A DNA stretch of 33,179 nt. Origin: an uncultured Pseudomonadota bacterium (GTDB lineage: Bacteria; Pseudomonadota; Gammaproteobacteria; Ga0077536). The stretch covers positions 1 through 33,179 of the forward strand of contig CAJWTO010000011.1 in NCBI GenBank assembly GCA_913047675.1. The letters run 5' to 3'. This document shows positions 11,709 to 29,467 of this stretch, piece after piece. The first letter of the stretch is position 1. Every line of letters starts with the position of its first letter. The translations under genes and the position numbers were made by a program. Under the pieces are notes generated by a model, which was given only the letters and a program-made list of their open reading frames with translations, was not told the origin of the DNA and searched no databases.

Positions 11709-13982
11709 TCAAAATTGGCTGGTCGCTTCGGGCAAATAGCGTGTTGTCAGAGGGTCCCGCCCTTTCCCGAGGCCGCCTAATCCCCTGAGTCGTACCTGTA
11801 TAAAGACACCTGTTACGTATTCTGACTGTCCGCTCGCTTTATTTCCATTCAAGTATCTCTGACCGATCACCCGAAGACCCCAACAGCAACTTTCGTATTC
11901 CAAGCCGCCGAATGCCTCAATTGTTTTCTTTTCTTCTATCGAGTAACTCCAGAGTCCGATAATAGACGTATCTGGTAGCGAATTGATCGGTAAGCGGAAC
12001 ACCGCATCGGTCTGTTTGATATTATCTAAATTTTTGTGCGGCGCTCTGGTAAATCTATAAGCAATTTTAGCAAGCGTATTACTATTTGGTGCATAGTCTA
12101 GAGAAATCGCTTTACGCTCAAAGTTTGTTTGTTTGGGATTCCACACAAAGGAACCTTTAATAGTTAGGTCTGGTTGAGGATTTAGGTCAAAACCTCCAAA
12201 CAAACTGGACAATGTATTTTTAGAGTAAGTTTGATTTGGCAAACTGATTTCTCTTTTCTCTAAGTGGAATACTTGCCCGAGATTGAATGCGAGAAATTGG
12301 CGTCCAGTTTCTTTGCTAGTAATTCGCGAGTTAATACCAGCGCTTATGCGGTTGGCATCGCCGATTCTATCTCCTCCAAAACCAGAGATCCCTCCCGAGA
12401 ATCGATTAGGCAGATACATTGTGTGAGGATTTATGTCCATCGTACCAGTATCAAAAACGGGCAGATTATCTTGGTTAACTTTTGGTATATAAACGTAGTA
12501 AATACGTGGCTCTAAGGTTTGGAAAAGATTAAACCCCATTAGAGAAAAGTCTCTTTCAGCGAATAACGTCGCGTCTAATGTTATTACAGGAACGGTACGG
12601 GACTCATCTTCATAAATCGAAGCGGGATCATCATTAAAGTATTCGGTATGGGAGATCATAAATTTAGGAGTTACCTTAATGAATGATTTGCTATAGTCGT
12701 AGGAGATAGAGGGAGCAACTGTAGTTCTTATACTGGTTAGGCTGTCGTCTCGGTTAAAGTAAGTAAAATCGGCTTCAAAATTAGGTTGCAACGCGAATAC
12801 TTTAGGTAAGTTTTTTTTCCTAAATTCAATTTTTGGCAATAGTTGGTACGGCTTCGCTCCAGCGGGGAGGCTTCGGTTAACACTCTGGTATGCTTGCGTT
12901 AGCGCTGAGACATAATAAGACGCATTTTCGTAAACAAATTCTGCTTTTCTATCCATAAAACTCTGGGAAGATTGGCCAATCGTTGTGCCGAAATCTTGAA
13001 AATATTGATCATCCGAAAGATTCGAAAAGAGAATATCGATTCGTCCCTTATTTTCAAATATCCGGTGATGATGTTCTGCTCTGATATAAGATCGATCTTG
13101 CTTATCTTTGATTTTATCTCTTACTAAATACTCCACGTCTATAGAACCCGCGTAGTCGTGGTTTAGGTACCTATACTCGGTGTCTACTAGTACGCCTCTG
13201 TCTTGCATAAAGCGAGGGGCAATTGTTGCATCTTGAGTCGGTGCAATATTCCAGTAATAGGGCACTTGCGTATCGAAGCCTGATTCATTACTCGTGCCAA
13301 AAATAGGTGCTAAGAATCCCGATTTTCTTTTTTGACTAGTAGGGAAATTAATATACGGCATGTAAAAGACCGGGATATCGCGAAAACGGATGATGGCGTT
13401 GCTGGCTGAAGCGCGTTCATTGTTATGGTCAATTCTGATAGCACTTGCATTCAGTTTCCAAGTTTCATTAGATACCGGGCAAGTGGTGTACTTAACGTTT
13501 TTTAAAATACTTATCTCATTTGCAGAGTCGTGTTCAATGACCGCAGCTTTTCCGCGCCCCAGACTTTCATTCAACCAATACTGACCATCATTCAGTCTGG
13601 CAGTCTCGTTCAGAGAGTTAAAATGAAGGCTGTCTCCAGACCAAATAGCTCCTTTACTCCAAAGATGAGCACGACCTTCCGCATCATAAAGTCCTGTATT
13701 TTTATCGTAGGTGATGACTTCAGCACGTATAGCTTGGAGACCTTTAATAACCTCTACATTGCCATGGAATTGACTGCGCCCGGATTCGACAATTCGAGAG
13801 TTATCTGCACGAATTTCAGTGCTTTCGAGATCGATTCCTGGATCTGCATGCATAGGCCTATCAGGAACAAGTTGATTATTAGGGCAAAAACTCCAGGCAC
13901 TATTAGTCTCAGATCCCGCAGCAGTGACTACTTGCGAAGCAGAAAGTATAGCTGCGAGAACGGAAACAGCGAGTATTCTCAG
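11709..13982 (-). CDS. lptD: LPS-assembly protein LptD; proposed start is CTG at 13982, not the track's ATG at 13853
   Basis: Track ORF is LptD (OstA/beta-barrel; YTTCPVSNETWKL, YESCCWGLRV). Upstream in-frame translation adds (L/M)RILAVSVLAAILSASQVVTAAGSETNSAWSFCPNNQLVPDRP, i.e. signal peptide plus the N-terminal Cys. GAGG lies 7 nt before the CTG; no ATG/GTG/TTG in frame back to the stop at 14091-14093. Confidence 0.85.
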   Translation of the reverse strand: MRILAVSVLAAILSASQVVTAAGSETNSAWSFCPNNQLVPDRPMHADPGIDLESTEIRADNSRIVESGRSQFHGNVEVIKGLQAIRAEVITYDKNTGLYDAEGRAHLWSKGAIWSGDSLHFNSLNETARLNDGQYWLNESLGRGKAAVIEHDSANEISILKNVKYTTCPVSNETWKLNASAIRIDHNNERASASNAIIRFRDIPVFYMPYINFPTSQKRKSGFLAPIFGTSNESGFDTQVPYYWNIAPTQDATIAPRFMQDRGVLVDTEYRYLNHDYAGSIDVEYLVRDKIKDKQDRSYIRAEHHHRIFENKGRIDILFSNLSDDQYFQDFGTTIGQSSQSFMDRKAEFVYENASYYVSALTQAYQSVNRSLPAGAKPYQLLPKIEFRKKNLPKVFALQPNFEADFTYFNRDDSLTSIRTTVAPSISYDYSKSFIKVTPKFMISHTEYFNDDPASIYEDESRTVPVITLDATLFAERDFSLMGFNLFQTLEPRIYYVYIPKVNQDNLPVFDTGTMDINPHTMYLPNRFSGGISGFGGDRIGDANRISAGINSRITSKETGRQFLAFNLGQVFHLEKREISLPNQTYSKNTLSSLFGGFDLNPQPDLTIKGSFVWNPKQTNFERKAISLDYAPNSNTLAKIAYRFTRAPHKNLDNIKQTDAVFRLPINSLPDTSIIGLWSYSIEEKKTIEAFGGLEYESCCWGLRVIGQRYLNGNKASGQSEYVTGVFIQVRLRGLGGLGKGRDPLTTRYLPEATSQF

Positions 13983-14139
13983 ATTGACGCCTCGTTTGCA
14001 AAAATAGCTTGGAAGTTTAACTTTCTTATCCTTATTCAGTTTTAAAAACTTACTGTAAAAATCGCACAGATTACACTCAGCTTCAACACGTTATTTACAC
14101 TATCTGCGAGGTGCTTACTTTGGGTCCGGTACTAAGCCC

Positions 14140-26732: not shown

Positions 26733-28601
26733 ATGGCGGAAGGTAGCAATAAAGAAGAATTAGGGTTTGAGTCTGAAGTACAGCAGTTACTAGATTTAGT
26801 AATTAATTCTTTATACAGCAATAAGGAGATCTTTCTGAGGGAGCTCGTCTCGAACGCTTCTGACGCGGTTGATAAGCTACGATTTTCCGCATTATCTGAT
26901 GATGCTTTATATGAGGGCGATCCAGACTTAGGCGTCACAATTGATTTTAATGAAAAAAAGAAAACCATTACCGTAAACGATAATGGTATAGGAATGAATC
27001 GTGAAGATGTTATAGCGAATTTAGGTACTATAGCCAAGTCTGGAACTAAAGAATTCTTTGGTGCCCTTAGTGGAGATGAAACAAAAGACTCGCAATTAAT
27101 AGGACAGTTTGGAGTAGGATTCTACGCAGCTTTTATAGTAGCTGAGAAAGTCGTTGTGACCTCGCGTAAGGCCGGCGATAAGGTTACTAAAGGAGTGCGT
27201 TGGGAATCAGAAGGCAAGGGCGATTATTCAGTAGAAAGTGTTGATAAGATTTCAAGAGGAACTGAGGTCGTTTTACATTTGAAAAAAGAAGCTAAGGAAT
27301 TTGCTTCGAATAGCAAAATCCGTGAGATATGTAAGAAATATTCCGATCATATAGCTGTGCCTATCAGTATGGCACCTATTTCAGGTGAAGGTGATCGCGA
27401 GGTAATAAATGAAGCTACAGCTATTTGGAAGAAGGCTAAAGCTGAGATTAGTAATGACGACTATAAGGAGTTTTACCGACTTATCTCTAATGATTTTATG
27501 GAACCGCTCAAATGGGTCCATTCTCAGGTTGAAGGTAAGTTGGAATACACAACTTTGTTCTATATTCCTCAGATGGCTCCATTTGATCTTTGGGATAGGG
27601 ATTCTAAACAGGGAATTAAGCTTTACGTACAGCGTGTCTTCATTATGGACGACGCAGAGGAACTTTTGCCGCGTTATCTTCGTTTTATTAAAGGGATAAT
27701 TGATACAAATGATTTGCCATTAAATGTGTCGCGCGAGCTTTTACAAAAGGATAAAGCGCTTGAAAAAATTAGGCTTGCGTCTATCAAAAAGATATTAGGA
27801 TTGATTGAGCGTTTAAGTAAGACCGATGATTATCAGAAATTTTGGACCACGTTTGGTCGGGTACTTAAGGAAGGAATCGTAGAGGACGAGGCTCATCGTG
27901 AGCGAATCTCTAAGCTTCTTAGGTTTTCGAGTACCGTAGAAGGCGGGGATGAGCCTACGGTAGGTTTCTCAGATTATGTTTCTAGGATGAAGGAAGACCA
28001 GACTGATATTTTCTATATAACCGCCGATAGTTTTGCGACTGCAAAAAATAGTCCACATATAGAATATTTCTTGTCAAAAGGAGTTGAGGTTCTTCTATTA
28101 CACGATCCGATTGACGAATGGGTTACCTCGCATTTAACTGAGTTTGATGGCAAAAAACTCAAATCTATTGTTCACTCAGACTTAGATGAAGAAAAAGATG
28201 AAAGCGCTAAAAAGACAGAGAATGCTGCGGATGAACAAGAGTATGGAGAATTTCTCGATAAAGTGAAAAATTTATTATCAGACAAAGTTGAAGATGTCAG
28301 AACTAGCAAGCGCTTGACATCATCTCCAGCCTGCTTGGTGTCTAGCGCAGCGTCCCCAAGCGCAAATATGGAGCGATTGCTTCAAGCTGCTGGGCAGCAA
28401 ATTCCCGAATCTAAGAGAATTTTAGAGTTGAATATGAGTCACCCTATTATCACGCTAATTCAAAAAGAGAAAGATGAAGAAAAACTGAAATCTTGGTCAA
28501 ATTACTTATTCGGGCAGTCGATTGTCGCTGAGGGAGGTAAGCTGGATGACCCGGCGGCTTTCATTCAGAATATTAATCAAACGCTACTTGATACGGCGTA
28601 G
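26733..28601 (+). CDS. htpG: Molecular chaperone HtpG (Hsp90)
   Basis: FESEVQQLLDLVINSLYSNKEIFLRELVSNASDAVDKLRF, GIGMNREDVIANLGTIAKSGT, GQFGVGFYAAFIV; ATG at 26733 preferred over the track start 26700. Confidence 0.98.
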   Translation: MAEGSNKEELGFESEVQQLLDLVINSLYSNKEIFLRELVSNASDAVDKLRFSALSDDALYEGDPDLGVTIDFNEKKKTITVNDNGIGMNREDVIANLGTIAKSGTKEFFGALSGDETKDSQLIGQFGVGFYAAFIVAEKVVVTSRKAGDKVTKGVRWESEGKGDYSVESVDKISRGTEVVLHLKKEAKEFASNSKIREICKKYSDHIAVPISMAPISGEGDREVINEATAIWKKAKAEISNDDYKEFYRLISNDFMEPLKWVHSQVEGKLEYTTLFYIPQMAPFDLWDRDSKQGIKLYVQRVFIMDDAEELLPRYLRFIKGIIDTNDLPLNVSRELLQKDKALEKIRLASIKKILGLIERLSKTDDYQKFWTTFGRVLKEGIVEDEAHRERISKLLRFSSTVEGGDEPTVGFSDYVSRMKEDQTDIFYITADSFATAKNSPHIEYFLSKGVEVLLLHDPIDEWVTSHLTEFDGKKLKSIVHSDLDEEKDESAKKTENAADEQEYGEFLDKVKNLLSDKVEDVRTSKRLTSSPACLVSSAASPSANMERLLQAAGQQIPESKRILELNMSHPIITLIQKEKDEEKLKSWSNYLFGQSIVAEGGKLDDPAAFIQNINQTLLDTA

Positions 28602-28606
28602 CGACA

Positions 28607-29467
28607 CTGAATGTTTTTGATCTTGTTAACTCAGCGGCTCAGCGCTTAGCTGCCGCTGATGTTTGCTTAGGTCACGGTATTGACAATGCTGAAGATGAGG
28701 CGCTTTTCTTAGTTTTACATGCCACAGGGCTGTCTTATGATTCGCCGGACGCAGCTCTTAACACTGAGCTTACTTCTGTTCAACTTAACGCGATTGATCG
28801 GTTAATTACTGAGCGAATAGAGAGTCGGAAACCGTCCGCATATTTGACTGGTTATATGTGGTTTTGTGGGTATAAATTTCGGACTGATGAGCGAGTTTTG
28901 GTTCCTAGATCGCCGATTGCCGAGTTGATTGTTAAAAGATTTCAGCCTTGGTGGTCTGAGACTGAGAACCCGACTGCTTTAGAAATCGGCACGGGTGGAG
29001 GATGTATAGCAATTAGTATGGCCTTGAGTTTGGAAAACCTAGATGTAGAAGCGACCGATATAAGTGCAGGTGCTATAAAAGTAGCTCAGGAAAATGCTCT
29101 ATTACATTCTGTTGGAAGCCGGGTACGATTTTACCTGGCAGACTTATTTCCGGAACAAAAGCGTAAATATGACCTGATAATTTCGAATCCGCCATACGTA
29201 CCTTCCGCGCGTTATACTAGACTCCCCAAAGAGTACCACTGTGAGCCTGCGGGTGCCCTTGTGAGTGGAGAAGATGGTATGGACTGTGTGCGTCGTATTC
29301 TCGAGCAAGCACCAGATTATTTGATGGATGGAGGGCTGCTATTTATGGAGGTGGGAGAGCTTTGGGAAGTTGTAGACAAGACATTTTCCAGCATAGACTT
29401 TACTTGGGTAGATTTAGAGTTCGGAGGCGAAGGCGTTCTCTTGGTGTCTAAAGAACAGCTTGTATAA
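28607..29467 (+). CDS. prmB: 50S ribosomal protein L3 N(5)-glutamine methyltransferase; proposed start CTG at 28607
   Basis: Track ORF begins at an internal TTG (28844). In-frame upstream sequence reads (L/M)NVFDLVNSAAQRLAAADVCLGHGIDNAEDEALFLVLHATGL...SRKPSAYLTGYMWFCGYKF, aligning with the PrmB N-terminus (GHGTDN..DEA, AYLT..WFCG). NPPY motif at ISNPPYVPSARY. Confidence 0.88.
   Translation: MNVFDLVNSAAQRLAAADVCLGHGIDNAEDEALFLVLHATGLSYDSPDAALNTELTSVQLNAIDRLITERIESRKPSAYLTGYMWFCGYKFRTDERVLVPRSPIAELIVKRFQPWWSETENPTALEIGTGGGCIAISMALSLENLDVEATDISAGAIKVAQENALLHSVGSRVRFYLADLFPEQKRKYDLIISNPPYVPSARYTRLPKEYHCEPAGALVSGEDGMDCVRRILEQAPDYLMDGGLLFMEVGELWEVVDKTFSSIDFTWVDLEFGGEGVLLVSKEQLV

Follow-up and report, generated by a model that had tools for sequence, protein, structure and literature searches.

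The lptD gene on the minus strand of the window, the whole 33,179-nt stretch of DNA from an uncultured gammaproteobacterium analyzed here, is very probably a conserved member of the known but rare class of genes that begin with CUG. In our reading translation of LptD probably begins at CUG 13982, a near-cognate codon, with fMet in the ordinary way and mostly unaided by a Shine-Dalgarno (SD) sequence; it would follow a short leader transcribed from a conserved promoter, and this start would be a weak one. Annotations contain very few natural CUG starts, in part because gene finders disallow them. Comparative evidence points to such a start in an essential outer-membrane gene, and to a second one, in prmB, in the same 33-kb window of the same species. 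Should this hold, LptD as annotated in these genomes is missing its signal peptide together with its N-terminal disulfide cysteine, and lptD would make a test case for whether the level of an essential protein is governed by weak starts.

Reading frame and product of lptD

The lptD frame is open from the TAA at 14093-14091 down to the stop at 11711-11709, and its first in-frame ATG, GTG or TTG counted from that TAA is ATG 13853-13851, the start that standard annotation would choose. A first-pass annotation of this DNA had stated that no canonical start precedes this ATG in frame and that a CTG at 13982 lies ahead of an encoded signal peptide and cysteine; all of this is borne out by the sequence. 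The landmarks are as follows.

11709..13982, minus strand: lptD coding sequence as read from the putative CUG, 757 aa plus stop, with Pfam and PDB matches
13980..13982, minus strand: proposed CUG start codon, CTG in the window and in loci L002 and L003; the maximum-likelihood coding start falls on the same codon
13920..13982, minus strand: signal peptide (M)RILAVSVLAAILSASQVVTA, read by eye, with predicted cleavage after VTA
13884..13886, minus strand: codon of the N-terminal Cys in WSFCP, preprotein residue 33; WxFCP is kept in the genus and xxCP in the family
13851..13853, minus strand: first in-frame ATG, from the list of open reading frames, internal and 43 codons into LptD; the upstream codons 28-42 are under protein-level selection

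LptD is an essential, low-abundance protein. The window protein matches both the barrel model PF04453 (E=2.5e-70) and the LptA-like N-terminal domain PF03968 (E=2.5e-7) above cut-off, as well as 15 LptD sequences in the PDB (best 1.7e-88); the NCBIfam LptD equivalogs also match it, with scores below their cut-offs. Downstream of CTG 13982 the translation runs RILAVSVLAAILSASQVVTA-AGSETNSAWSFCPNNQLVPDRP, and read from the CTG itself LptD begins (M)RILAVSVLAAILSASQVVTA-AGSETNSAWSFCPNN..., by eye a normal Sec signal peptide whose n-region charge is supplied by the R directly after the CTG. The four-cysteine pattern C1, C2, C3-C4 is present as WSFCP, TTCPV and ESCCWG. The corresponding cysteines of E. 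coli LptD are Cys31, 173, 724 and 725 (PMC10567701), and Cys at residue 33 is the predicted counterpart of Cys31.

Translation from ATG 13853, with the upstream frame open by chance, retains almost no probability. No other canonical start precedes the conserved LptD body in the window's frame, but use of this one would leave an outer-membrane protein without signal peptide and N-terminal Cys. The previous argument that the mature Cys should be translated holds up, with WxFCP kept through the family and the C-CC pairs present. Moreover, codons 28-42, which adjoin the ATG upstream, show six synonymous changes against one non-synonymous change between L002 and L003, the widest pair, and such selection at the protein level indicates that the sequence upstream of ATG 13853 is evolving as protein.

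The CTG codon in related genomes

CTG occupies the identical codon in the alignment of lptD from three species, namely that of the window and those of its nearest relatives L002 and L003 (93% LptD identity over the match); the CTG-bearing genomes are these three only, all close. L002 is a metagenome-assembled genome (MAG), and L003 is record AG-390-I23, taken as a single-cell genome from its record style. Neither L002 nor L003 has a canonical lptD start upstream of the CTG, and none is common to all three species. In L003 an in-frame TGA stands at codon -21 relative to the CTG. A GTG at codon 7, within the signal peptide, is found in L002 and L003 only, the window having GTT there, and a start at this GTG would strip the charged n-region.

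The first-pass annotation had weighed CUG initiation against a sequencing or assembly error, and had proposed an alignment of orthologues at this codon. The alignment favors CUG initiation, given the CTG in L002 and L003 and the lack of a shared canonical start. An error that masks an ATG, GTG or TTG, or an indel, might be entertained for a draft genome in 138 contigs such as that of the window, but two independent genomes of other species, the MAG L002 and the presumed single-cell genome L003, carry the same CTG, are identical at CTGAGAATACTCGCTGTTTC and likewise lack a canonical start; we reject this option as highly improbable.

In the more distant cousins L004-L006 (three species, 61% identity) a TTG lies one codon away from the CTG position, and the distance from the start to the conserved Cys is 33 codons from this TTG versus 32 from the CTG. 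Other genera of the family mostly start lptD with ATG, and the Woeseiaceae-type group almost always with TTG; over the relatives TTG was called as the start in 53/80 loci by a simple signal-peptide rule, a rough criterion that puts the start of a few loci in the wrong place. In the Woeseiaceae-type loci L023-L081 surA is mostly GTG-started (38/80 loci). The simplest history would be a change from UUG to CUG: since lptD of the relatives is already UUG-started without an SD, the step to CUG would take only one transition. Belinky et al. recorded only one UUG to CUG change among 2,468 ancestral UUG starts (PMC5622118).

Where coding begins

For the window-L002 pair the maximum-likelihood coding boundary coincides with the CTG codon when the rates are taken from these genomes; the counts of codon changes behind it are small. 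Codons 0-5, which include the CTG, are identical in DNA among the three species and codons 6-9 all vary synonymously; identity over the first six codons is as would be expected of a translation start region. Further upstream, codons -13 to -1 show three synonymous versus four non-synonymous changes between L002 and L003 and none versus three between the window and L002, while in the comparison with L003 6/9 changes fall at third positions, so that weak coding may extend into this segment.

This segment would be translated if initiation took place at the in-frame GUU 14021-14019, which would lengthen the signal peptide by 13 residues (VKLPSYFCKRGVN) and follows an SD-like element by 7 nt:

14029..14033, minus strand: AAGGA, SD-like, 7 nt before in-frame GTT 14021-14019; AGGA-N7-GTT occurs in 6/6 genus members

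The in-frame conservation of AGGA-N7-GTT throughout the genus counts against a start at the CUG, the added stretch is free of acidic residues, and the GUC start of sigR provides a precedent for a G-U-pyrimidine start (PMC5472188). We nevertheless regard initiation at this GUU, the main rival of the CUG, as improbable: adding codons -13 to -1 lowers the coding log-likelihood of the window-L002 pair by ~3 nats, the cousins start canonically, with TTG, at the place of the CTG, and the block holds an inverted repeat, AAGTTAAACTT, which could be an operator instead. The AGGA and the repeat that follows it span 14033-14013 on the minus strand and are partly kept in the genus.

Less likely again, with only a slim chance, is a start at AUA 13976-13974, the second codon after the CTG. 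The ATA is kept in the three species and infC begins at ATA in five genomes of the genus, but the signal peptide would lose its sole positive charge (LAVSVLAAILS), and the strong GGGAGG of infC has no equivalent at the lptD AUA.

Putative promoter, predicted leader and Shine-Dalgarno sequence

Upstream of CUG 13982, our preferred start, three elements are distinguished.

14058..14086, minus strand: promoter-like element TTGAAG-N14-TGYGATTTT, with -35, 17-nt spacer and extended -10, by pattern match
13983..14051, minus strand: predicted leader of ~69 nt, no frame of which contains ATG or GTG, from the promoter position and the sequence
13990..13993, minus strand: GAGG, 7 nt before the CTG in the window, not kept in L002 or L003

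The promoter-like element recurs in 20 further loci with a constant length of 29 bases, each time just upstream of lptD, and is absent elsewhere in the ~2.4 Mb of G000 and G033; its chance expectation in the window is 0.01. The geometry suggests a sigma-70-type promoter with a transcription start at about 14051. The loci with this element (L012, L015-L017, L020 and L092-L107) belong to diverse Gammaproteobacteria. Folding of the leader revealed no stabilising structure: the window sequence is less folded than its shuffles (z +1.8), and the relatives show no consistent trend.

The GAGG had been described as a good SD driving the CUG start. Its presence and 7-nt spacing are confirmed, but not that role, as it is absent from the two nearest relatives and lptD of the relatives is mostly without an SD; across the window, L002 and L003 no conserved SD at proper spacing for the CTG was found. 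Most ATG-started lptD genes of the family are likewise without an SD. Among the surveyed ATG genes an SD core is present in 114/419 (27%), versus 35 in shuffles. The 16S rRNA, sought for its anti-SD, was not recovered in any genome of the genus.

Other probable non-canonical starts in these genomes

Roughly half the genome was surveyed, as ~1.18 Mb of G000 and ~1.27 Mb of G033, which gave 522 orthologue pairs whose 5' ends were closed; genes were picked out where the sequence ahead of the first canonical start common to both genomes evolves like protein, and the candidates were then inspected. Three, lptD, ispB and prmB, were left without an ordinary explanation. Discarded on inspection were groEL (a paralogue whose ATGs do not line up), a CoA-transferase gene (interrupted in frame by a stop in G033, near L191 7221, but not in G000), an amidohydrolase (an indel) and a further high scorer that is a paralogue pair. 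A 77-codon open reading frame on L123 was also among the high scorers.

The second candidate CUG start lies in the window itself, where the first-pass annotation had overlooked it.

28607..28609, plus strand: proposed CUG start of prmB, CTG in G000, G033 and G032, placed by the family model
28607..29467, plus strand: prmB coding sequence, ribosomal protein L3 glutamine methyltransferase (TIGR03533, 308 bits, cut-off 229.7)

The prmB frame opens after TGA 28589-28591 and its first canonical start is TTG 28844, whereas the TIGR03533 match already begins at residue 8 of the open reading frame, at profile position 4. CTG 28607 is thus the only near-cognate codon in place for prmB, and it is found in the same three species as the CTG of lptD. 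The likelihood score is modest (3.3), and the first scoring missed prmB, the family model settling the case. As the htpG stop at 28599-28601 precedes the CTG by 5 nt, reinitiation is possible. The presence of this CTG in the same species counts for the proposed CUG start of lptD.

In ispB the N-terminus lacks ATG, GTG and TTG in both G000 and G033, and ATC stands where the family model begins (L251/L252, L125, L204); the start is probably AUC, its exact position being uncertain. The cousins' ispB has ATG where G000 has CTG and G033 has CTA. In each of the five genus genomes where infC was found (L261-L265) its start is an ATA preceded by GGGAGG, which is expected behavior for a gene known for non-canonical starts (PMC5472188). 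The sequence of IF3 is ordinary in the genus, and a CAU tRNA is present whose anticodon stem has three G-C pairs (GGG-CCC). These features of IF3, infC and the tRNA were counted for the CUG reading of lptD. A broader proposal, that start choice is relaxed in the genus, with CUG (lptD, prmB), AUC (ispB) and AUA (infC) used routinely, essential genes throttled by weak codons and the IF3 level tuning envelope assembly with translation, strikes us as doubtful.

Probable weak initiation at CUG and its parallels

Under the proposed mechanism the 30S subunit would initiate with fMet-tRNA at the lptD CUG, an event weak by nature, and the leader context together with a low demand for LptD would make it sufficient. 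The CUG would then be a deliberately or tolerably weak start that keeps LptD low, in line with a presumed low expression of the gene, and IF3, whose own gene is AUA-started here, would be expected to repress it. In E. coli, reporter activity from CUG is 0.86% of that from AUG, and CUG makes up 0.024% of annotated starts (PMC11497404). Activity as low as 0.86% is hard to square with an essential gene that lacks an SD, and this counts against the CUG start.

Several known systems offer parallels. Like lptD, infC is essential and has a conserved non-canonical start that annotation misses; this start is AUU in E. coli, in Streptomyces AUC and in this genus AUA. It combines a strong SD with autoregulation by IF3, whereas lptD has no conserved SD and its control by IF3 is hypothetical. 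The rep gene of the FIB replicon of F-like plasmids has a CTG start chosen to hold expression low (PMC11983097). As in lptD, this CTG is misannotated to a downstream canonical codon, and in rep it sets the low expression; rep is, however, a plasmid gene with an SD (GGAGG/GGAAG) and experimental proof, whereas lptD is chromosomal and non-SD and its CUG putative. In Streptomyces the GTC start of sigR is repressed by IF3 (PMC5472188). This gene resembles lptD in being chromosomal with a conserved weak start, which in sigR limits the amount of protein, but differs in its codon, its SD context and the available proof, and in encoding a regulator rather than an outer-membrane protein. The closest parallel in position is the UUG-started lptD of the Woeseiaceae-type group, the same gene with a non-AUG start at the same place relative to the signal peptide; that UUG is canonical, whereas the CUG of the window would be expected to be far weaker.
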